A stretch of DNA of 64,000 nt, taken from Paracyclopina nana. Its lineage: Eukaryota; Arthropoda; Copepoda; Cyclopoida; Cyclopettidae. Shown here in pieces: positions 19,244 through 52,607 of the stretch. Position 1 is the stretch's first letter, and each line of letters opens with the position of its first letter. The stretch covers positions 14,706,501-14,770,500 of the forward strand of contig JAGUCH010000002.1 of NCBI GenBank assembly GCA_019096065.1, in the 5' to 3' direction. The notes below the pieces were generated by a model. The model saw only the letters and a list, made by a program, of their open reading frames with translations, searched no databases and had not been told where the DNA came from. The position numbers and the translations under genes were made by a program.

Positions 19244-20374
19244 ATGGAGCAGTACGATTTGATTGTGAACCAGCCCGTGGTCATTGATAATGGCTCGGGC
19301 GTCATCAAGGCCGGCTTCGCCGGTGACCAAGTGCCCAAAGTCAACTTTGCCAACTACATCGGGCGGCCGAAACACACTCGCGTGATGGCAGGCGCCCTCG
19401 AGGGCGACTTGTTTGTCGGGCCCAAAGCCCAGGAACACCGCGGCCTTTTGTCCATCAAGTATCCCATGGAGCACGGAATTGTGACCGACTGGAACGACAT
19501 GGAGCGCATTTGGCAGTACATCTACAGCAAAGACCAATTACAAACATTCAGCGAAGAGCACCCGGTGCTCCTCACAGAAGCTCCGCTAAACCCGCGGCGA
19601 AATCGGGAAAAGGCCGCCGAGATCTTTTTCGAAACTTTCAACGTTCCAGCCTTGTTCTTATCCATGCAGGCCGTGCTCAGCTTGTACGCCACTGGTCGCA
19701 CCACCGGAGTCGTCCTGGATTCGGGAGATGGTGTCACGCATGCTGTGCCCATCTATGAAGGCTTCGCCCTGCCGCATTCGATCATGAGATCCGACGTGGC
19801 CGGTCGTGACGTTTCCCGGCATTTAAGGCTGCTGCTTCGCAAGGAAGGCGCCAACTTTCACACCACAGCCGAATTCGAAATAGTGCGAACCATCAAAGAA
19901 AAAACGTGCTACCTGGCAGCTCACCCCCAAAAGGAAGAGTCTCTCGACTCGGAAAAATTAGCCTATGTTCTACCCGATGGCAGCACTCTGGAGATTGGAC
20001 CCGCCAGGTTCAGAGCCCCGGAGGTCCTCTTTCGACCGGACCTCATCGGAGAAGAGTACGAGGGGCTGCACGAGTGCTTGGTATATTCCATTCAAAAGTC
20101 GGACATGGACTTGCGCAAAGTTTTGTTCCAAAACATTGTGCTCTCCGGAGGATCGACCCTGTTCAAGGGCTTTGGCGATCGCCTCTTGTCCGAGGTGAAA
20201 AAGCTGGCTCCCAAAGACATCAAGATCAGGATTTCGGCACCGCAAGAAAGGCTGTATTCAACGTGGATTGGTGGCAGCATTTTGGCCTCGTTGGACACCT
20301 TCAAGAAAATGTGGGTCTCCAAACGCGAGTACGACGAGGACGGTCATCGGGCTGTTCATCGAAAAACGTTTTAA
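19244..20374 (+). CDS. Arp1: actin-related protein 1 (centractin), dynactin filament subunit
   Basis: Single-exon ORF of 376 aa, the normal length for Arp1. Arp1 forms the short actin-like filament of dynactin, which links dynein to cargo. The actin fold is complete: phosphate-1 loop [25 protein letters not shown], phosphate-2 loop [22 protein letters not shown], adenosine site [15 protein letters not shown], and [50 protein letters not shown] is typical of Arp1 rather than conventional actin. The C-terminus ends HRKTF, as in Arp1, not in the KCF of actin. The ATG at 19244 sits in a good context (gaaaATGG). Absence of introns is unusual next to heavily spliced neighbours but the gene appears intact. 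Confidence 0.95.
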
Positions 20375-26057: not shown

Positions 26058-29000
26058 ATGCCTGGCCATATCAAGAAATCTGATGGGCCAGACCCTGACC
26101 CAAGTCCTTGGCTCATTGTGTCACCCGAGCTGAAGGACAAATTAAAGTCCAAGCCTTATGATCCAAAGAAGTCTTGTTGGGTACCTGATAAGGCCTCTGG
26201 AGGGTATTTGGAGGGTCTCATTGAGTCGACTGATGGAGATAAAGTTACCGTCAGCATCCTTGAAACCAAAGAGGTAAGGATTGCTCTGCAACTTTTTACT
26301 TGAAAAACACTAACTTGAAATTCACACAGAAAAAAGTATTCAAGAAAGATCAAGTTGGTCAAGTCAACCCTCCCAAGTTTGACTGTTGCGATGACATGTC
26401 TGGCTTAACCTATCTTAATGATGCATGTGTTTTGTGGAACTCAGTGGTGCGCTACAAGAATGAGCTCATTTACACTTACTCTGGGCTCTTCTGTATTGCC
26501 ATCAACCCCTACAAGAGGTTTCCCATCTACACTCAGCGGACTATGGAGATTTACATTGGCAAGAGGAGAACTGAGTGTCCTCCTCACATCTTTGGTGTAG
26601 CTGAAGGCTCTTATCAGGGCATGATGAACGCTGGCAAGAACCAGTCAATTCTGATCACTGGAGAGTCGGGAGCTGGTAAAACTGAGAACACCAAAAAGGT
26701 AATCTCCTACTTTGCAAGCATTGGTGCCTCTGGCAAGAAGAAGGAGGGTGAGGCTGGACTAGAAGACAAGATTGTGCAAACCAATCCAGTCTTAGAGGCA
26801 TGGGGAAATGCGAAAACAGTAAGGAATGACAACTCCTCAAGGTTCGGAAAGTTTATTCGTATATGGTTCAACCAAGCAGGAAAGCTGTCTGGAGCAGACA
26901 TGGTTGTTTATTTGCTTGAGAAGTCAAGATTGACCTTTCAGGCAACTCTTGAAAGATGTTACCATTCTTTCTACAACATTATGTCTGACCAGATTCCTGA
27001 TATAAAGCCTAAATGTCTGCTCTCCAACAATATCTATGACTACTGGTGGGTATCTCAAGGCAAGGTTACTGTGGAATCGATTGATGATAAAGAAGACATG
27101 CAGTTTGCTGATGAGGCTTTTGACATCCTTGGCTTTACCAATGAAGAAAAGTACAATGTGTACAAGTTGACAGCTGTTGTCATGCACATGGGCAATCTCA
27201 CCAAGGACTTTTATCCTGTTGGCAAAGAGGAGCAAGCCGATGTTAGAGATGAGACCAATGCTGAGAAGGTTGCTACCATTTGTGGAATAGATAAGGAGTG
27301 GATGATAACCTACTTTTGCAAGCCTAAGTTGAAGGTTGGAACTGAGTGGGTCAGCAAAGGTCAAACCTGCTCTGCAGCTGGCAGCTCAGTTGCTGGTATT
27401 GGTAGAAGTATCTATGAGAGAGTCTTCCGATTCATTGTTGACAAGTGTAATGAAACTTTGATTGATCCAACCATGAAAAAGGTTCAGTACATTGGTTGTC
27501 TTGATATTGCCGGCTTTGAAATCTTTGACTATAATGGATTTGAGCAAATTTGCATCAACTTTTGTAATGAGAAGCTGCAACAATTCTTTAACCAACACAT
27601 GTTTGTCTTGGAGCAAGAGGAATATGTCAGAGAAGGTATTGAATGGGCTAATGTGGATTTTGGTATGGATTTGCAGAAATGCATCACCATGTTTGAGAAG
27701 CCAATGGGACTTTTAGCCATCCTAGAGGAGGAATCTCTATTCCCCAAAGCAACCGATCAAACATTTGCTGCCAAACTGCACGACAACTTGCTTGGCAAAT
27801 GTGAAAACTTTCAAAAGCCCAGCCCCAAACCAGATCCAAATGCCCACTTTGCTGTTATTCATTATGCTGCATGCGTTTCCTACAACCTAACAGGTTGGCT
27901 TGAAAAGAACAAAGATCCCCTCAATGATACCATTGTTGAGCTCATGAAGAATGGCACCAATGCTCTTTTAGTTGAATGCTTCTTTGATCACCCTGGTCAG
28001 CCCTTGGAGGCGAAAAAGGATGGTGGAGGGGCCAAGAAGAAAGGTGGTGGCAAAACTGTATCATCTTTCTACAAAGGTCAACTTGATGACCTGATGAAGA
28101 CCCTGTATGCCACAGATCCTTCTTTCATCAGATGTGTTGTACCAAATACTCATAAGCAGCCTGGTGGTGTAGAGCCTGGACTTGTCATGCACCAATACCA
28201 ATGTAATGGTGTGTTGGCTGGCATTGCTATTTGTCGCAAAGGCTTCCCCAACAAGATGCTTTACAATGACTTTAAGATGAGGTACAACATCTTAGCTGCC
28301 AATGAATGTGCCAAGGCTAAGAAGGACAAGGATGCTGCAAAAGCTGTATTGGACAAAATCAACTTGGAAGCTGAAAAGTATCGCCTTGGTCACACGAAGG
28401 TTTTCTTCAGGGCAGGTATTCTTGGATTTATGGAAGAGGTGAGAGAAGACAGGATTGGTCAAATATTGTCTTACTTGCAAGCCTTTGCCAGAGGTAAGGC
28501 ATCAAGAATGGTATTCAAAAAGATGCAAGAACAAAAGCTTGCTTTGTATTGTTGCCAACGTAGTATTAGGAATTGGCAAATTGGCAAGCACTGGCTGTGG
28601 TGGAAATTATGGCTTGCCCTTAAGCCTAATTTGAAATGTACCAAGTTTGCCCAATACAAAGCTGAGTATGAGGCCAAGATTGCTATTGCTGAGAAGAACA
28701 TTGATACGGCTATTGCCGAGTGCAGGAAGGTAACAGCCCAACATGACAAACTCATGAATGAGAAGAATGAACTTGTTCATGCTCTTGAGAGTGGAGGCTC
28801 TGCTGTGCAAGATTTGATTGATAAGGCAAATAGGGTTGAAGCTCAAAAGAATGAGCTGCAAAGGCAAGTGGATGACCTAAACAACAGAATCCGTCAAGAG
28901 GAAGATGGCAGGTCTTATGTTCAAGCTCAAGCATCCAAAATGAGGCAAGAAGCTGACAAAGCTAGGAATGAAATCAAGGAGCTTGAGAACACCTTCCTTC

Positions 29001-32000
29001 AATGTGAGGAAGATAAAGAAACCAAGGAAAATCAAATAAGAACCTTGAAAGAAGAGCTTCAACAGCAAGATGATCTATTGAACAAGTTGCAAAAGGAAAA
29101 GAAAGCAATTGGTGAGTCCCGGCAAAGAACTGAGGAAGAAATTCAAGCTTTGGAAGATCGTTGCAACCACTTAAGCAAAGTGAAGGGCAAATTGGAGCAG
29201 TCTTTGGATGAATGTGAAGATTCTCTTGAAAGAGAGAAAAAGTCAAGAGCTGATGTTGACAAGGTCAAGCGTCGCCTTGAGGGAGATGTCAAGTTGACTC
29301 AAGAGGCAGTGGCTGATCTTGAAAGAGTGATCAGTGAACTGTCACAAACTGTGCAACGAAAGGAAAAAGAGTTAGCTAGTATTGCAGCTAAGATTGAGGA
29401 TGAGCAAACCCTAGGAGGTAAGTTCACCAAGCAAACCAAGGAGTTGCAATCAAGGATTGAGGAGCTAGAAGAAGAACTGGCTATTGAGAGGCAAAATAGG
29501 GCCAAAGCTGAAAAAAGCAGGTCAGCCTTGTCAAGGGATATTGAAGACTTGGCAGAGAAACTTGAAGATGCTGGTAACAATACTGCTACTCAAGTGGAGT
29601 TGAACAAGAAGAGGGAATGTGAGCTGATGAAGCTCAAAAATGATCTTGAGGAGTCAAATATTGCTCATGAAAGCACCCTAGCTTCACTAAGGCAGAAGCA
29701 CAACAGCTCCATGGCTGATCTGGGTGACCAAATTGATCAACTCAACAAGATGAAAGCAAGAATTGAAATGGAAAAGGGTAACATGGAAAGAGATCTCATG
29801 GAAGCCCGAAACTCTTTGGATGATGCTTTGAGGGACAGAGCCAACTTGGAAAAAGCCAGCAAAATCAATAATTCAATGATTGTGGAGGCAAACCAAAAGC
29901 TTGATGAGATGGCAAGAGCCCTCAATGAAGCTGACTCATCCAAGAAGAAGCTTCATGTTGAGCAACAGGACCTTCAAAGGCAATTGGATGAAACTGAGAA
30001 TGGTATTGCTGCTCTTGGAAAGAGTAAGATTTCTCTTACTACACAACTTGATGACACAAGAAGACTAGCTGATGCTGAGACCAGGGAGAGGGCAGCTCTG
30101 CTCAGCAAATTCAAGAATCTCAATACTGAGCTGGAATCCATCAGAGTAAGGATTGAGGAGGAATCTGAGCAAAAGTCTGATTTGCTGAAAGCCTTATCAA
30201 AGGCCTCTGCTGAGGTTCAACTTTGGAAGTCTAAGTATGAGACTGAAGGGTTGGCTCGAGTTGAGGAGCTCGAGAGTAACAGGGCCAAGTTGAATGCCAG
30301 GCTGCAGGAGGCAGAGGAGACCATTGGCTCGTTGCATGCTAAGGTTGCTGCCACTGAAAAGACGAAGCATCGCCTTGAAGCTGAACTTGAGGACTTGCAG
30401 TTGGAATATGAGAGGGTTCATGCAGCTGCTGTCATTGCTGAAAAGAGAAGCCACAACTTTGACAAGGTAAAATTGCTTGATAGTGCACTGCTTTACCATG
30501 GTTACCAGCTATTAACTTCTAGGTTGTCAATGAGTGGAAGGCCAAGGTTGATGATTTGTCTAATGAGTTGGAAGCTTCCCAAAGAGAGTGCAGGAACTAT
30601 AACAGTGAGTTGTTCAGGTTGAGAGCAGCTTGGGATGAAACAATTGAGCAGCTGGATGTTGTCAAAAGGGAAAATAAAAACCTTGCTGATGAGATCAAGG
30701 ATTTGCTTGATCAGCTTGGTGATGGTGGAAGATCTATTCATGAGTTGGATAAACAGCGAAGAAGGCTCCAAGTAGAAAAGGAGGAATTGCAAGCAGCCTT
30801 AGAGGAGGCTGAAGCTGCACTGGAGCAAGAAGAAAATAAGGTCATGAGAGCTCAGCTTGAGCTTGGTCAGGTCAGGCAAGAGATTGATAGGAAAATCCAG
30901 GAGAAAGAGGAAGAATTTGATAATACTAGGTAACAACAATTTTGCTTGATAAAGTTATTTTGATTGCAAGCTTTTTTTTTCAGAAAAAATCATCAAAGAG
31001 CTATGGATTCAATGCAAGCCTCATTAGAGGCTGAAGGTAGGGCAAAGGCTGAAGCCCTCCGCATAAAAAAGAAGCTTGAATCTGACATTAATGATCTTGA
31101 AATTGCTCTGGACCACAGCAACAAGTCCAATGCTGAGGCTCACAAGTCCATCAAGAGGTATCAGCTTCAATTCAGGGATGTTGAGCAAGCTTATGAAGAG
31201 GAATCAAGGCAAAGGCAAGAGTTGGCTGAAAAAGCTGGTTTGGCTGATCGCAGGGCCAATGCTTTGGCAAGTGAGCTGGATGAGGCTAGGTCACTCTTGG
31301 ACTCTGCTGATAGGGGAAAGAAGCAAGCTGATATGGAACTTGTAGAAGCTAGATCAGCTGTCAATGATATGTCTACCATTAACTCTAAGGCCAACTCTGA
31401 GAAGAGGAGGATTGAGGCCTTGGTTCACACTGCCCAGGCTGAAATTGATGATTTGATTCATCAAGCCAAGAATTCAGAAGAGAAAGCCAAAAAGGCCATG
31501 ATTGATGCAGCAAGGCTTGCTGATGAGCTGAGAGCTGAGCAAGATCACTCCTCTAGCCAAGATAAGGCGAGGAGAGCAATTGAAGCTCAAATCAATGAGC
31601 TTCATCAAAGACTTGAGGAAGCCAATGAAATGGCAGCCAAGGGAGGAAGAAATGCTATTGCTAAGATGGAAGCTAGGATCAGGGAACTTGAGCATGAGTT
31701 GGGCTCATCTCAATCAAGGACCTCTGAAACTTATAAGGCCTATCAAAAGGCTGAGAGAAGGCTGAAGGAGCTTCAGTTCCAGCAAGATGAAGAGCACAAA
31801 AACCAGGATAGGATGTCAGAGTTGGCAACCAAGCTTCAGCAAAAGATCAAGACTTACAAGAAGCAAATTGAGGAGGCTGAAGAAATTGCTGCCTTGAACT
31901 TGGCCAAGTTCAGGAAGGCCCAACAAGAGCTTGAAGAAGCTGAAGAGAGATCCAAGTTGGCTGAAAACCAGCTTTCTTACAATAGAACATCCAGGGCTGG

Positions 32001-32013
32001 ATCTATGATGTAA
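26058..32013 (+). CDS. Mhc: muscle-type myosin II heavy chain (divergent, intron-poor)
   Basis: Four exons: 26058-26273, 26330-30466, 30523-30929 and 30984-32013. Phases agree, giving 1,929 aa, the usual length. The motor holds the P-loop GESGAGKT (about residues 183-190), switch I NDNSSRFGKF, switch II DIAGFEIF and a Gly/Lys loop 2. The reactive-thiol helix reads QYQCNGVLAGIAICRKGFP, where muscle myosins generally have LTCNGVLEGIRICRKGFP. The lever-arm region is diverged (ALYCCQRSIRNWQIGKHWLWW). The tail, from about residue 835, is a continuous heptad coiled coil ending SRAGSMM, with the assembly region well conserved (ALDHSNKSNAEAHKSIKRYQ). It drives actin-based contraction in thick filaments. 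No mutually exclusive exons of the insect Mhc kind are present: the whole motor is in one 4.1-kb exon. This suggests a duplicated, specialised copy. Confidence 0.93.
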
Positions 32014-43468: not shown

Positions 43469-46400
43469 ATGGCAGACAGACCACTTTTTATAAGGCTCAG
43501 CATGCCAAGTGGATTGGAAGATGCTTTGGAAGGGTTGGCAAGAGAGATCCTTCGTCATCAACCAAAAGACATGTATGAGTTTTCTGCCCAATATTTTGAG
43601 GGGCTCTTGAGGCAAAGGAACAAAGGTAAGATTCATTTCACTCAAGTTATTGAAGGGGTTGGTAAATCTAATTCAATATTGATCTATTAAATGAGATGAG
43701 TTTTAATGAAAGATTTCTCTGATTGCCTATGATCCATAAGAAATTCACTTACATGTATCAGATATTGCTTTTTAGTCAAGTCACATTTCAAAATGCTGCA
43801 ACACAAATAACAAAATTATTGGCACTTTTAGATAATTTATGAACGATTTTCTGAGTAGGGCAACTACCTATGCTAAAACATACTTAATTTTACTAGTTGA
43901 TTGGGTATCCTTGAGTCATCTGAGCTAATAGTAAAATATTACAGAAATGGGCATGCCAGAAGATGATGTTTATGGATTATCAAGATACGTGGATGAAGAA
44001 CTTCCTGATTTGAATGACCCTGAGTATGAAAAGGCAGCAACAAAGATTCAAGCTGGTTTTAGAGGATCAAAAGCTCGAAAAGAAGTTGTTGCAATGAGGC
44101 AACAGAATGTTGAAGAGGATGATGAAGATATGTCAGTAGACCAACATATTGAAGAATCTAGCAAAACTGCTATCCAAATTCAAATGCCAACAGAAGAGGA
44201 AGAGGAAGTTGCAGAGGGAACTCAAGGGGAAGAGGAAATTGATATTGATCTAGATGACCCAGAAGTTGAAATGGCTGCTACCAAAATTCAAGCAGGGTTC
44301 AAAGGGATGAAAACTAGGAAAGAAATGAAGCAGAAAAAAGAACAACAGTACAGCCATCAAATTCCAACAATTGAAATAGACTTAGATGATCCCGAAGTTA
44401 ACTTGGCAGCAACAAAAATTCAAGCTGGCTATAAAGGCATGAAAACAAGGAAGGAGCTTAAAGAAAGCACCAAGCATGATGATGCAGCCTTTGATGAAGA
44501 GATAGTTGATGAAGCTGCCACTGTTATCCAAAGTGGGTACTACTCAATGAAAGCTAGAGAGGATATGGGGGAGAGTGAAGATAACTTGTATTTTGATCCA
44601 AATGATCCTGAATTGAATCAAGCTGCATCAAAAATTCAGGCAGGGTTCAAAGGCCATAGGACTAGAAAGGAAATGGACAAAATAAAAGCAAAGAAACTTC
44701 AGGAAGTTGTAGAAGAAGAAGAAGAAAATGAAGGCGAGGAGTTGGAGATTGATATTGACCCTGATGATCCAGAAGCTCAACTAGCAGCATCTAAAATTCA
44801 GGCAGGTTTTCGAGGGATGAAAACAAGAAAGGAGCTCAAAATTAAGGTAAATACTGGTAAGACTTCTGAGGTGCAGGAAGATGAAATTGACATTGACTTG
44901 GAAGATCCAGATGTTGAAGCAGCAGCAACCAAGATCCAAGCAAGCTTTAAAGGAATGCGAACAAGAAAGGAAGTGAAGAAAATGAAGGAAAAACAAACTG
45001 AAGCAGAGGCCCCTGAAGTACTTGAAGAGCCATCCGAAACAGAAATTGATATTGATCTAGGTGATCCTGAGGTTGAAATGGCTGCAACCAAAATACAAGC
45101 TGGATATAAAGGAATGAGAACTAGAAAGGAGCTTAAGAAGAAAACATATGATTCAGAAATAGTGAAAGTAGCTGCTGATTCTGAAATAGAAATAGATCTT
45201 GATGACCCAGATGTGAATTTGGCAGCAACTAAAATACAAGCAGGCTACAAAGGAATGAAAACTCGCAAAGAAATGAGGCAAAATCAGCTTACCTTAAACA
45301 AAAATGATCATGATCAAGAAGAAGCTGAAGGGAATGACAAAGATGAATGTGATGATCATACAGAAGAAATAATTGATATTGATTTGACAGACCCTGAAGT
45401 AGAAATGGCTGCAACTAAGATTCAAGCAGGGTTTAAAGGAATGAAAACAAGACAAGAACTAAGCCTAAAAAAAGCAGCTTTGGGAGATGATTCCCAGAAA
45501 ACTGCCTCTCAAGGAGAAGAAGTAGACATTGATTTGGATGATCCAGAGGTTAATGCAGCTGCAATAAAAATTCAAGCTGGATATAAAGGTATGCAAACTA
45601 GGAGAGAATTAAAGAAGCACAATATGAACTATCAAGATGCAGTTGATCCAACTGAGGTTGATGTCAAAACCCAAATCAATCAAGACAAAGAAATTGACAT
45701 TGATCTGAATGACCCTGAGGTTGAAATGGCTGCTACAAAAATTCAAGCAGGATTCAAAGGAATGAAAACTAGAAAAGAAATAAGGGCCCAAAAAGGAGAG
45801 GGCTATGAATGTAAACCTATGACTGATGATGTTGGATCTGAACTCAAGGATGAAGAAAATATTGACATAGACCTGGAGGACCCTGATGTTAATCAAGCAG
45901 CTGTCAAGATTCAGGCTGGCTATAAAGGAATGAAAACTAGAAAAGAGTTGCGATCAAAGAAAGATGTTGATCAAGAAGCAACAGAAGAGATTCAAGCAAA
46001 TGAAGATGAAGAAATAGACATTGATCTAGAAGACCCAGAGGTCAATAAAGCAGCAACTAAAATTCAAGCTGGATATAAAGGAATGAAGACGAGGAAAGAG
46101 CTCAGGTCTGCCAAGGAAGGATCAGCTATTGAGATAGCATCTAAAATTGAAGAAGAAATGCCAATAGGGCCAGAAGATGATGAAATCAATATAGATCCTG
46201 ATGACCCAGAAGCTAATCTAGCCGCAACTAAAATACAGGCTAGCTATAAAGGAATGAAAACTCGTAAAGAGCTGAAAGCCAAACAATCCAATAACACAAC
46301 ACTTCCTTTGCTAAGGAGAGATGAGATAGATGAAACTGACATAGTTGTATCAGAAGAAGCTGCACCAGAAGAACCAGAAAATGAACAATCAGCATATGAA

Positions 46401-49400
46401 AAAGCAGTTCCAGAAGAAGTTCCATCTGCATATGCTGAACTAGAAGAACTTGTATCCAATGAAGTAGCACAAGAAGAAGCCACACCAGAAGAAGCCGCAC
46501 CAGGAGAAGTTCCACCTGACAAAGCTGCACCTGAAGAAACTTCTCCTGATGAAGGAGCACCGGAAGAAGCAGCACCTGAAGAAGCAGCACCTGAAGAAGC
46601 AGCACCTGAAGAAGCAGCACTTGAAGAAGCAGCACCTGAAGAAGCAGCACCTGAAGAAGCAGCACCAGAAGATGGTACACCTCTAGAAGCTGCACCAGAA
46701 GATGGTACACCTCTAGAAGCTGCACCAGAAGATGGTACAACTCTAGAAGCTGCACCAGAAGAAGCTGGACCTGAAGTTGCAGCACCAGAAGAAGCAACAC
46801 CAGAAGATGGAGCACCAGAAGATGGCAAACCTCAAAAAGTTGCAGTAGTAGAAGCTATACCAGAAGAAGCTCCAGCAGAGGATGCTGCACCAGAAGTAGA
46901 AATACATGAAGAAGCAGCGCAAGTAGAAGCTGAACCAGAAACAACCTCCCCAGAAGATGCTGCACCAGAAGAAGCTGTACTAGTAGAAGCTGCACAAGAA
47001 GAAGCTGAACCAGAAGAAGCCACACCTGAAGAAGCTACACCAGATGAAGCTTCAATTGAAGGAGGTGCTCCAGAAGAAACTTCACCTGAAGAAGAAGCAC
47101 CTAAAGATGTTGCACCTGAGGAGCAAGCACCTGAAGATGCTGAACAATTAGAAGGCCAACAAGATGAAGCCTTACCAGAAAAAGCTGTAACAGATTTGGA
47201 GACTGCATTTGATGAAACTAAGCCAGGAGAAGTTGCAGAAACTGCCCAAAAAGAACTTGTACCTGAAGAAATAACAACTGAAATGCTTATTGAAGGAGCA
47301 GGGGAACTTCAGGATCAGGATATTCAACAACAATCTCATGCAGAGGATGATGGGTACAATTCTCCTGAATTTACTGCAACAACTGCCTCTAGCATGCAAG
47401 GATCGCCTATAAAATCAATGAATTTGGAATTGACAGGAACTGCTGCTTTATTGCATGATCCAAATGATGATATCATCATGACCATGGTATCACAAGAATC
47501 GATAACAGACTCTGATATGATAGATGAATGCAGTGATGTTACTCAGGAAGACAGATGCTTCAATTTTGGTGCTCCAGAAGCACTTGATGAAAATGAGGAG
47601 GATGGAGGTTCTATGCTTTCATCTCTTCTCACAGTTGCTGCTGCAGAGGATTATAATCAAGTACCTGAAAATCATGAACCAGACTTTGAAACTAATTATG
47701 ACGACATTGTTAGTGACAGAAATTGTGCAATTGATGAAGGAGGAGCGGTCCCATTTTTTGAAGGTGGAGGTGAACAAACAGAATATCCAAAAGAAGATGC
47801 TCCTGAAGAAGAAGCATCAGGGGTAATAAATCCTAATTCTGTTTCTATTGGCAATTGTGTACAAGCAGCCCCTGAACCAGCTTCAGATGGTCTTGATGAA
47901 ATCTCAAATATAACTTTGGATGGTGCAAGGCCTCAAAATGACACAGCAGTTTCAAGCACAACAGAAACAATTGTGGACTCAGAAGATGTAATTACTGGAG
48001 CTCATGACACATTGATTGTAGCATCGGAAGGTGAAGAAGCAACAGCACTAGATGATCAATCTGATAGTGAAAAACCTTGCACATTTGAAGTAATGAATAT
48101 TGACTCTAATCAAGCTTTAGTCCAGTCAGCTAAGTCCATTGAAATTGAGGACCAAATATTCCAAGAGCTCAAAAAGAGCCATGAGTCAGACTTAGTTGTG
48201 GAAGAAAGTGCTCATTCAGTCCAGGAAGTTGGTGCTGTTCCATTTAAACTCTACTCAGGTCACCCACAAGCCAAAACAAACCATCCAAAATCAAATGAAG
48301 AAATCACATTGTATTTTAACAGAGGGTCATATTGTTCAGAAAAAGTGCTCATCTATTTGCATGAGAAGGGACTTGAGTTTATGCCTTTCCACATTGACCT
48401 TTCAAAGGGGGAGCAATTTTCAAAATGGTTTTTAAAAATCAGTCCCAAAGGGGAAGTTCCAGTGCTAACTATAAGGGATATCTCAAAAGATACTTCTGAT
48501 CCAAGACACCTAAGAGCTATCACTGAATCCACCAGAATCATTCATTCCTTGGAGACAAAATATGGTGATGATTTGCCATCCCCAAGATTAGTTCCTCTAG
48601 TTCAAGATACAACTTCTTACCAACTCCATGTTTATTTCACAGCAATTTTTGATCAGGTAGGTGGAAAACATTGACCATTAATTTAGCTAACATTCATCCC
48701 TCTCTTTTAGATTCCACTCAATATCATCAGTCATGGACTAGCTTTTCATGACCACTTGGCTATTGAGCCTGAACCGCCATACATTCATGAAAACTATGAT
48801 GCTATAAAAGAAATGGTTCTAAATAGATCATCTGTCCTTATGGATGCTGCTGATGACTATGCTAATTTTATTGGTTCAGACACTGATGCTGCAGTTGTTG
48901 AGCTAAGAAAAAAAGCCAAGTAAGTGTTGCTTCCTATAGAACTAATTATGTGAACTTATAATAAACTTTGCAATTCTAGCATTCATAAGACCAGCATGGA
49001 CCAGTACATGAATTTTACAGAATACAAAAAGCTACTGAAGAAAACTTCCTCAGCTTTGGATAAAGTAGAGGCACAGCTTAAGAAAACCATGTCTGGCAAT
49101 ACAGAAGATGACTGTGATGGCTGGCTATTGGGAAGCGGTTTCAGTGCTGTAGACATTACTTTAGGTGTATTCCTTCATCGACTGGCAAAGTTGGGTTTGA
49201 GGCATTATTATTGGTCCCATGGAAAGAGACCTTATACCCACAAGTTCATGAGACAAATGGTATTTAGGCAATCATTTGCAAAGTCTGTATCTAGACTTCC
49301 AATCTCTGAAATCAGTGGCCCTAAACCTAAACTCATGACAGACTCATCACTTGAATCTAGGATTTCTTTGGATGAAATGGAAGTGTATGTGCAAATGGAG

Positions 49401-49631
49401 AAGTCTGATTTTAGAGAGAAAAAGATACCACCTCTCAGAGTGACTGCCAAGAGCAAAGAATCAATGGAAGTGTTTAATGAAATTCAAGAAGCTCATGCTA
49501 CTGATGAAAAGGAGGATAATGCAGTGTATAAAACTCTCAAGACTCACTTAGAAGAGGATGAAGGACCAGTCACACAACAGAGAACTTCTTGGAAGCAACT
49601 GTGGGTGTCTGATGAAGAAGAGGAAAAATAA
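43469..49631 (+). CDS. fusion protein: RIIa docking domain + 15 IQ motifs + acidic PEEA repeat + GDAP1-like GST
   Basis: Four exons: 43469-43625, 43945-48656, 48711-48919 and 48980-49631, all in phase, giving 1,909 aa. Exon 1 encodes an RIIa/Sp17-type dimerisation-docking helix pair (LEDALEGLAREILRHQPKDMYEFSAQYFEGLL), which docks on A-kinase anchor proteins, often in cilia. Exon 2 has 15 IQ motifs (about residues 79-820), most as AATKIQAGxKGMKTRKE with an EIDIDLDDPEV spacer, expected to bind calmodulin. Then comes an EEAAPEEAAP-type repeat (about 855-1130) and a long acidic linker. The same uninterrupted exon then encodes a thioredoxin-fold GST N-domain, starting ITLYFNRGSYCSEKVLIYLHE (about 1504). 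The all-helical GST C-domain follows (WLLGSGFSAVDITLGVFLHRLAKLGL), as in GDAP1. RIIa plus IQ resembles Sp17; the added GDAP1-like half is unusual. A sperm or ciliary role is inference. Confidence 0.85.
46540..46840 (+). repeat. coding minisatellite (GAAGAAGCAGCACCT units and longer variants)
   Basis: In-frame tandem 15-bp units encode EEAAP, and three nearly identical 30-bp units (46670-46760) encode PEDGTPLEAA. Near-identity at the DNA level shows recent expansion by slippage or unequal exchange within the RIIa-IQ-GST gene. The wider Glu/Ala/Pro region extends to about 47160. Confidence 0.8.
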
Positions 49632-49679
49632 AACTAGTTATCTTTGTGCATTACTAACTGTACAAAATAGGCTACAACT

Positions 49680-52607
49680 TTATGCAGGGATTTTTGATGC
49701 AGTGAAAGGAGTAGATTCTTGCTCATCTCCACTCTCAGTACTAGATGAACTTGCAGTGACATTCTGATTGAAGTGAATTGAGGGCTGTTGTGGTGGGATA
49801 GATCCATGTCCAACAACTATGGATGAAAGAAGAGTTTTAGCATGGGGCTCTGTTAAATTGAGTTTTGTGTTCTTACAAGAAGGTGGAGGTGGCTGAAATT
49901 TAGCCCCATTAAAGTTGGCCCTGTGTTGAGCTGCTTTATAGTATTGCTCTAGTTCAAAGGATGAGCACAAAGGTGTATCAACTTCATAAGTTGAGTGGAA
50001 TGCTGAGAAGTTGACTTGATGCTTGTTGATGTCTCTCCTGTACAGCATCATGGGTTCAAACCTGTGACCCCAAAGGATTTCTGTTGGCAAGTATGAAGAT
50101 CTTGCTTGGAAAGTCATACTTGTTGACTCAGTCACCCCTTCCAGCACCATGTGAAGCTCAAACTTCTCCTTAGCCATTGCTGCAGCTGAAGTTCTGTAGA
50201 GAGGGCTTTCTTCATCAATAACATGGACTACAGTAATTGGCCAGATCAAAAAGATACAAGGCTCCTCACATGAGTTGGGAGTGATTTTAAGTGGGATAAC
50301 TTCATGAAGCATTTCTCCTTCTTCAGTGACTCTTCTTCGAATAATTTTTACACTTAGGTTAGCATTCACTATAAAGCTGTCATGTCTCATATCTCCCACT
50401 CTGAATATCATGCAGAGTTTCCTGTTCATTTCACAAACAACTGCATGCTTGCTGAAGACCACTGTTTTAGCTCTGAAAAAGCACAGAAAATCCAGTTCAT
50501 GCATACATAAGCTTAATTTTGAGATAAAAACCTGTGTTTAGGTCTGGACAACTTGGCAAACACCAAGCCCACCATGAAAGCCTGAATCAAACAACCCAAA
50601 ACACTCTGCAGAGACATGACTATCATGGCTGAGACACACTCATTTGTGGTTTGTCTACTTCCGTACCCAATTGTATGCTGAGTTTCCAGTGAGAAGAGGA
50701 AGCAAGAGGCAAAATCTTCTATTTCCCATACACAAGGCTTCCAAGATGAATTGTCTTGATTTTTTGGTAGGTGGTTCTCTTCCAAATCTCCATGGACATA
50801 GCATATGACATAGTATGCAACAGCAAAAGCAAGCCATGTCAAATAAAAACTAGTTGCAAACAAAAACAAGGTTTCAATCCAGCTGAAATTCAAATTGACC
50901 ATTGATGCATGCTGAAGATAATGATTAAAGAAAATGGCAAGCTTGCCTTGAGTCCACAAGAGTTGTGTAGAGATCAGATATGTATCTCCTCCTTCTTTTT
51001 GAAATATTTTTGTATTGAATATTGGCATCTCCATCTTTTTCCACAATTCTCCTCCTTTTGTCACTTCTCCTGTTTCCATCATCTTTTCCATGATTTGAGG
51101 TGAACTCAATGATCTTAGCCATTGGACTTAGCTTGGTCTCCTCACCCTCAGAGTCTGAAGCCTCATGAGCTCCACCTACACTCACTCTCCTTGTCCAAGG
51201 ACTTGGTATACCTGCAGGTCTGGAGGCTACAGAGCCCAAATCCGAGGGTAGAGTCTGAAAATGAACATCCTAAAATAAATTAATAAAGACGCAGCATTTT
51301 ATTTTTTCTTTTATCATTTTTTTCCTATTTTAGAGCGATTTTTGATTTTCAAAACTCAGTTTGAAACAAAGTGGAAAAAAATGCCCTTTTGCAACTTGCT
51401 TAGAGACTTCAACCAAGCTGTTCTTGGATGATATGATATATTTTGTTGATTTGGGGGGCCGTAAAACAAGTTCAAGTACCTTGTATAATCTTCTTAGACT
51501 GCATACAACAAACACTTGAATGAAAAGAGATCTTGACTTTTTTTAGTTGGACCTCAAGTGCTAATTGGCATCCATTGGATGTGTCTTATCTAAACATTGT
51601 GAAACAACACTCAATTCATGTAGGTGTTGGACCATCAATCAATCACACACACACACAGCAGAAAAAACCAGAACATGGAATTTTGCATTTTAAAAAAAAG
51701 GATCACAAAATTCCAGGGCACAACAAGTGAAATCTGAGAATTATCACCTCAATTTAATATGTTTTTAAGTATTAAGTTACCTTGGTGCTATGAAAGTGGG
51801 CACATCCACACAACTCTAAGCTCAGTTGGACACTGCAAACAATTATTCACACGCGCGCCCCCCAGCGGTTTTTGGTAGTAATTTGTGATCTCAAAATGCC
51901 TCACACCTCAAAAAAGGGAAACATGGCCGTGAATCTCTTATCTGATCCATCACAGCATTTTTTGTGCCAAACCGCCGCAATTACCTTGCTTGTGTGCAAA
52001 ATGCAATGATTTGAAAACTTGATTTAATGACCATACCAAAATAAAATCTATCATCACTTTGGCAAACCGAATTATCACTTTTAAGGTTTTTGAATGTGGT
52101 TAAAGGGATTTTAACAAGAAGAAATAACACTGCACAAAAAAGTTTTTTAATGCTTTTCTTGCAGACTCAGGGCTAATTTTTACCTTGGCTTTGTAATGAG
52201 GCATTTCTTGGCCAGTTGTCCCAAAAGTTGTGGCAGGCCTGCCTACCCAATTGGCATATTGGTCATCGAGGTATCTTTCCATTGTATTTTTAATGGGTGG
52301 CATTGAGTGCTTTGGTTTTGATACCGGGGTGTCAAGCTTGGGCCCAGGCTCCTCTCCAAACATCATCGATGCTTTGGTGGTTTTTCTTGCCTTACCCACT
52401 GAAATTAAGAGAATGCTTTTTTCTCGGGGGACTCAAGCTCAAATTGAAGCTTATATTTTAGTTGCTTCTCTTTTGAGTAGCGCCTTAGCAAAAAAAAGAG
52501 TTACCAGATGCAGCTTTTGGTTGGAGATGGAGACTTCCGGCATCAATTGCAGACTTTTTCTTCAATTCTGAAGACACATCATACATGTTTGGGATTGAAG
52601 TGCTCAT
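49680..52607 (-). CDS. inward-rectifier potassium channel (Kir family)
   Basis: Core exons on the minus strand: 51254-50947, 50882-50532 and 50472-49680. Two upstream exons, 52607-52505 and 52398-52184, fit in phase, for 589 aa in total. The core is a typical Kir: the slide-helix lead-in RRRRYISDLYTTLVD, M1 (LFLFATSFYLTWLAFAVAYYVICY), and the pore ETQHTIGYGSRQTT with the K+ filter TIGYG. M2 is VLGCLIQAFMVGLVFAKLSRPKHR, and a cytoplasmic Ig-like domain follows (FSKHAVVCEMNRKLCMIFRVGDMR ...). It should pass K+ inward at the plasma membrane and respond to PIP2. The intron inside the M1 lead-in (50946-50883) starts with GC rather than GT; splicing there restores LVDSSWIETLF. The 106-residue N-terminal extension from the two upstream exons is unlike known Kirs and could belong to a separate gene. 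Confidence 0.82.

Follow-up and report, generated by a model that had tools for sequence, protein, structure and literature searches.

The 64,000-nucleotide window analysed here (Paracyclopina nana, assembly GCA_019096065.1, contig JAGUCH010000002.1, positions 14,706,501 to 14,770,500) carries on its forward strand, at 43469-49631, a four-exon gene whose predicted product of 1,909 amino acids (aa) joins an RIIa docking/dimerization (D/D) domain, an array of IQ motifs, a long acidic linker and a glutathione S-transferase (GST) half that we read as GDAP1-related. Exon 1 (43469-43625) contains the ATG and the RIIa domain (aa 1-52) and is followed by a 319 bp intron (43626-43944). Exon 2 (43945-48656) encodes the rest of the N-terminal part, the IQ array, the acidic linker and the GST N-domain; exon 3 (48711-48919) lies inside the stretch aligned, with placement by eye, to the GDAP1 core including the GDAP1 insertion; and exon 4 (48980-49631) encodes the GST C-domain (to approximately 49301) and a tail without a membrane segment, ending at the stop codon (49629-49631). 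All three introns (319, 54 and 60 bp) are GT-AG, and the join keeps the reading frame across each of them with no internal stop codon. The 4.7 kb of exon 2 form 1,570 codons without a stop, with IQ array and GST N-domain both inside, whereas 200 mononucleotide shuffles of this exon gave no open run longer than 147 codons, ruling out a chance open frame. An in-frame stop precedes the ATG of exon 2 by five codons, and the RIIa part therefore joins solely through splicing from exon 1. The shared open exon and the frame-keeping junctions confirm that the RIIa domain, IQ array, acidic linker and GST-N/GST-C pair are encoded in one frame, a fusion that had been claimed in a previous sequence-only reading of this stretch.

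Pfam profiles were scanned over aa 1-849 and aa 1448-1909, and the linker was scanned separately as the segment 46335-48299. The RIIa profile (PF02197) matched aa 15-50 (43511-43618) with an E value of 1.4e-10 (41.1 bits against a cut-off of 22.4), in agreement with the RIIa helix pair that had been proposed for exon 1. Matches above the curated cut-offs were also obtained for IQ (14 stretches, E 3.9e-79), for the thioredoxin-fold GST N-domain at 48300-48656 (aa 1505-1623; GST_N_2 1.3e-11, GST_N_3 9.2e-11, GST_N 2.3e-8) and for GST_C_2 (9e-7). GST_C (PF00043) stayed under its own cut-off (15.9 vs 20.7 bits), as did weak matches to Yop-YscD_cpl, CE2_N, DUF2737, Daz and others. The RIIa, IQ, GST_N and GST_C domain types put forward by the sequence-only reading are thus all matched, the last through GST_C_2 and not PF00043; its proposal that two further in-phase exons supply the GST C-domain is upheld by the GST_C_2 match together with the frame-keeping gene model.

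Comparison of aa 1-106 with the sequences of solved structures gave Sp17 as the best match (9fqr, 3.6e-14; 8j07, 1.3e-12), both entries being, we take it, axoneme structures, followed by RSP23 (5.1e-10, through the IQ unit) and SPA17 in 7my4 (6.1e-8); PKA RII chains, CFAP91 (3.5e-6), RSP7 and RSP11 lie lower among the 27 sequences at E <= 1. This bears out the SPA17-like character suggested earlier for the RIIa and IQ half. The order of an RIIa domain followed by an IQ motif is that of SPA17 (Sp17; 8j07_K, 9fqr_Ic), which shares both the docking domain and the downstream IQ motif with the gene described here. SPA17 is, however, a short protein with one IQ, with chains of 147-151 aa, whereas the present product has 1,909 aa and 14-15 IQs and continues into a long acidic linker and a GST domain. 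In the passages of the D/D superfamily survey used here (PMC8339350), SPA17 is treated as the prototype of the R2D2 docking proteins, whose features include a Gly opening helix I and a 'YF' in helix II. Both are present in this protein (SGLEDALEGL and AQYFEGLL, respectively), although the YF is also found in an RI-like frame of the same genome and is not discriminating. According to the same passages, SPA17 by itself binds AKAP18 weakly, whereas its heterodimer with ROPN1L binds tightly; in radial spokes, RSP3 anchors D/D heterodimers of RSP7 and RSP11 (PMC8339350). As in the present gene, an RIIa docking domain occurs in other flagellar proteins of the spokes and fibrous sheath, namely RSP7, RSP11 and CABYR (the last from the same survey passages, PMC8339350). 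The remaining architecture of these three proteins is unlike that seen here. We know of no GST in any of them.

The IQ array (44007-46283) consists of 14 consensus units (at aa 87, 167, 211, 283, 337, 383, 436, 483, 545, 595, 652, 708, 759 and 816) and one degenerate copy at aa 247 (44526), the 15 copies being spaced 36-80 aa apart. The repeat unit, DLxDPEVxxAATKIQAGFKGMKTRKE, is longer than the IQ motif itself, and the 14 units have 12 invariant columns and a mean column identity of 70%. The array therefore stands as the sequence-only reading described it, but its '15 near-identical IQ motifs' need qualification, as 14 fit the consensus, the 15th is degenerate, and 'near-identical' is loose at 70% identity. 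The proportions of nonsynonymous (pN) and synonymous (pS) differences were computed for 13 units, excluding the first unit and the degenerate copy. Mean pN was 0.19 and mean pS 0.77, and pN was the lower of the two in all 78 pairs; silent sites are close to saturation, with individual pS values of up to 1.05, while the protein sequence is conserved. From these values the IQ repeats look to be under purifying selection.

A profile built from the 14 units gave seven matches among solved sequences at E <= 0.001, led by RSP23 (1.6e-9) and CFAP91 (2.9e-9) and followed in order by Sp17, neuromodulin, a second Sp17, neurogranin and PCP4. By this measure the IQ unit appears closest to axonemal proteins, with neuronal calmodulin-binding proteins not far behind. 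RSP23, the best solved match of the repeat profile, is a radial-spoke protein that, like the product of this gene, combines an enzyme-type domain with IQ motifs; it differs in being, by name, a nucleoside diphosphate kinase and not a GST, and in having three aligned IQ stretches, two of them weak. Among spoke proteins it offers the nearest precedent for joining calmodulin sites to an enzyme-type domain, and it presumably also has a DPY-30 domain.

The acidic linker downstream of the IQ array contains a PEEA-type tandem repeat (46467-47142; 15-bp period, 45 copies, 69% matches), so the PEEA repeat noted earlier in exon 2 is recovered as a 15-bp tandem array, and continues at 47143-48299 without a Pfam match. 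Net charge is -86 over aa 841-1110 and -80 over aa 1111-1490. No Pfam match at E <= 0.01 was found in the segment 46335-48299.

When the GST half was compared with solved sequences, 87 matches were obtained, the top nine of which are all GDAP1 (E 7.4e-28 to 5.3e-23); the first match outside GDAP1 is DHAR at 2.4e-7. The best alignment covers residues 16-296 of 8exz (7.4e-28), with the GDAP1 insertion placed by eye. The C-domain together with the insertion-aligned stretch matches solely GDAP1 below E 0.01 (9 sequences), the next matches being three SMC3 chains at 0.061-0.46. The best solved matches of the N-domain alone are LigF, Ure2p-like proteins, and plant and bacterial GSTs. Its site motifs, identified by eye, are GEVPVL and ITESTRII, where GDAP1 has ICEATQII; we take the GEVPVL loop and the ES of ITESTRII to resemble a canonical glutathione site, which is a prediction. 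With GDAP1 as the nine best of 87 solved matches, the earlier description of this half as GDAP1-like holds, and we read it as a GDAP1-related GST whose N-domain has a more canonical glutathione-site look. It shares GST-N and GST-C with GDAP1 and GDAP1L1 and aligns across the whole GDAP1 core including the insertion. Unlike these proteins, it has an N-domain nearer to other GSTs, is fused to an RIIa domain and IQ motifs, and lacks a hydrophobic tail: among windows after aa 1780, behind the C-domain, the best 19-residue mean hydropathy is 0.31 (window from aa 1786) and no hydrophobic segment was found. GDAP1 is described in the part of PMC5107993 consulted as tail-anchored through a C-terminal HD1 and transmembrane segment. 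The position aligned by eye with Cys88 of GDAP1 is Thr; Cys88 is the GDAP1 dimer cysteine, and GDAP1L1 is also without it, according to the portion of PMC7873046 used, in which hexadecanedioic acid is named as a fatty acid that binds GDAP1. Scans of viral and prokaryotic contig collections with the GST half gave 8 and 21 pattern matches, respectively, among which no relative was confirmed.

The genome (92 Mb, 10 contigs) was searched for related genes. In the RIIa searches exons were read singly and only the best candidates were scored, a design that divergent or split RIIa domains can escape. Three places reached the RIIa cut-off: the gene described here, one on C4 and one on C5. The C4 gene has cyclic-nucleotide-binding frames beside its RIIa domain and is hence probably PKA RII-like, and the RIIa frame of the C5 gene is RI-like by eye (RPDNP loop). 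This C5 docking frame (L027:5039-5371, minus strand) also narrowly passes the Dpy-30 cut-off (22.1 vs 22.0 bits). As the other two RIIa genes appear PKA-like, the present gene is the sole SPA17/ROPN-type candidate seen in the genome; three sub-threshold RIIa places (E 0.476, 1.74 and 3.17) were considered as a second SPA17/ROPN gene and rejected as noise-like by eye. Genes for RSPH3 (5.1e-15) and CFAP91 (1.3e-16) are present, and a radial-spoke setting therefore exists in this organism. Innexins (97 exon matches) and nuclear-receptor zinc fingers (zf-C4, 73 exon matches) in the genome suggest that it belongs to a bilaterian, probably a protostome.

Two further giant IQ-array frames were found on C3 (L019/L020, C3:114428-121888; L021, C3:8947655 onward). 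One, of 2,487 aa, has 26 units by a strict pattern, of the type DLDDPEVADAALKIQSGFRGHMARKEV, and the other, of 2,268 aa, has 26 strict-pattern units in the 2,115 aa read, of the type DLxxADVAxAAVKIQKVYRGFQARKKV; a looser pattern gives 27 and 36 units in the two frames. Mean identity within the three IQ arrays compared is 0.69, 0.66 and 0.51, and between them 0.40-0.49, which fits separate expansions of a common unit. The C3 frames, scanned alone, have no RIIa or GST match over the Pfam cut-off (EVE and Annexin_2 fall below it), and the Pfam genome search, again scoring the best candidates only, gave no RIIa place around them. A phmmer search with the RIIa domain of the present protein likewise found none around the C3 arrays, a weak test, as it missed the RI-like domain at E <= 10 and reached the RII-like one at E 0.1.

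On C2 the GST half found two pieces (E 7e-5 and 8e-4) of a separate gene with weak similarity to GDAP1. The C-terminal piece matches solely GDAP1 at E <= 0.01 (0.0047-0.0084), with GST_C_2 below cut-off, and the N-terminal piece has no good match among the sequences compared. Its tail is moderately hydrophobic (0.95), and a tail anchor for it is a guess. Between the two pieces, apparently within the coding frame, stands a putative long terminal repeat retrotransposon (G000, C2:9872506-9882057; L024, L025) with two 212-bp ends that are 100% identical, a 5-bp target-site duplication and inner frames that are BEL/Pao-like by eye. The insertion looks recent, so that the haplotype sequenced may carry a disrupted C2 gene.

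Within the window, an inward-rectifier potassium channel gene (49680-51109, minus strand) is convergent with the fusion gene and lies approximately 50 bp from its coding end, where the stop codon falls partly within an AATAAA hexamer (49627-49632). An actin-family gene at 19244-20374 is a single intronless open frame of 376 aa (Pfam actin, 1.3e-135) that we take to be Arp1-like. Long open frames at 26300-30622 and 30964-32013, the first a 4.3-kb open stretch, are presumably a muscle-type myosin heavy chain, judging by the look of the sequence.

The RIIa-IQ-GST fusion was not found described in the open-licence literature, in which there was nothing joining RIIa, IQ motif and GDAP1, nothing joining GDAP1 with the axoneme, and nothing joining Sp17, IQ motifs, sperm and RII. 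The main text of a paper on Tetrahymena spokes, in which RIIa, IQ motif, radial spoke and calmodulin occur together, does not contain 'glutathione' or 'GST', and that of PMC10266980 does not mention 'SPA17'. Adenylate kinases and enolase are among the D/D carriers in the D/D survey passages (PMC8339350); no GST is named in Table 1 and sections 4-6 of that survey, the supplementary list of 249 proteins being outside this scope, and 'GST' in its passages refers to purification tags. The sequence-only reading had called the architecture undescribed; this agrees with the open-licence literature, seen mostly as listings, to which the comparison was confined. We rate the known kind as a SPA17-type protein, and as new its enlargement and the unusual fusion to a GST.

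Our preferred explanation, to which we assign a probability of roughly 0.55, is that the gene encodes a lineage-specific, enlarged SPA17-type (R2D2) axonemal scaffold that unites a calmodulin array with a GDAP1-related GST. RIIa and other D/D domains pair into four-helix dimers, which hold an amphipathic helix. The N-terminal RIIa domain would accordingly dimerise and dock on such a helix in an AKAP-like protein of the axoneme, with RSPH3 of the radial spoke as the most likely partner, while the IQ array, as an extended arm, could bind up to approximately 14 calmodulins or calmodulin-like light chains. The acidic linker would keep the soluble GST away from the dock, and the GST part may act in the axoneme, beside the Ca2+/calmodulin array, as a glutathione-dependent enzyme or as a redox-sensing or binding module. 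A flagellar setting, which the sequence-only reading had also proposed, is likely, as Sp17, RSP23 and CFAP91 are the top solved matches and the RSPH3 and CFAP91 genes are present. Several results count against this scaffold. In the survey passages on R2D2 proteins (PMC8339350), the loop between the helices retains its first Pro and has Ile, Leu or Val in place of the second; the loop here is QPKDM, with a Met that is hydrophobic but is none of these three (comparison loops of the same genome are RPDNP, RI-like, and QPADI, RII-like). GDAP1 accounts for 0 of the 18 matches of the GST N-domain alone at E <= 1e-4. The IQ type is not cilia-specific, given that neuromodulin is fourth among the profile matches and neurogranin and PCP4 are matched too. 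Finally, the search of the genome with the RIIa profile (E <= 10) turned up no ROPN1L-like partner.

The neuronal matches of the IQ unit, together with the two giant C3 frames of IQ units, which showed neither RIIa nor GST, would also suit a cytoplasmic or neuronal PKA/AKAP-Ca2+ scaffold. In this reading the RIIa domain docks on a non-ciliary AKAP, neurogranin-like IQs store or buffer calmodulin, and the GST travels along as a passenger enzyme. As the best matches of both the N-terminus and the IQ unit are Sp17, RSP23 and CFAP91, we regard this as rather unlikely. The genomic sequence is likewise compatible with a chimeric locus, at which one transcript ends after the IQ array and linker and another begins in exon 2 to yield a free GDAP1-like GST, the full-length protein being rare or absent. 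Two separate products would not require an open linker, yet the IQ array and GST N-domain share one frame of 1,570 open codons and the frame is kept at every exon junction, so that this arrangement is improbable.

It is very unlikely that the IQ and PEEA arrays are tandem repeats that grew for the most part neutrally within an ordinary SPA17 gene, with chance read-through into a GST gene. The PEEA array is indeed a simple 15-bp repeat, but the excess of pS over pN in every pair of the 13 IQ units compared, on which simple repeat drift was rejected, and the GST-N and GST-C profiles, each over its Pfam cut-off, argue otherwise. Least probable of all is a protein of mitochondria, or of the mitochondrial sheath of sperm, whose membrane function resembles that of GDAP1, although the C-domain matches solely GDAP1 below E 0.01. 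The missing membrane tail (best mean hydropathy 0.31) and dimer cysteine (Thr at the position aligned by eye with Cys88) are evidence against a mitochondrial role, and the separate, weakly GDAP1-like C2 gene has the more hydrophobic end, itself moderate. The mitochondrial reading was rejected on the lack of a membrane tail, and the sheath role suggested by the sequence-only reading is not sustained when the GST half is set against tail-anchored GDAP1, as described in the part of PMC5107993 used.

Proteins with D/D domains organise motile cilia and sperm tails, according to the survey passages (PMC8339350). For the SPA17-type scaffold favoured here, a speculative extension, to which we give a low probability, is that in this animal lineage radial-spoke SPA17 has been replaced by a giant form that bears both a calmodulin array and a functional glutathione-dependent enzyme, such that Ca2+ and redox state would be read together in the axoneme, the sister IQ giants suggesting a lineage-wide expansion of calmodulin-storing scaffolds. 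That a SPA17-type dock and a calmodulin array are combined with a GDAP1-related GST suggests a need for a glutathione-linked module at an AKAP/radial-spoke site, and the fusion may couple an enzyme-like module of the beating cilium to calcium signalling. If this is true, a GDAP1-type GST would be used off membranes, which bears on the poorly understood role of the GDAP1 fold.

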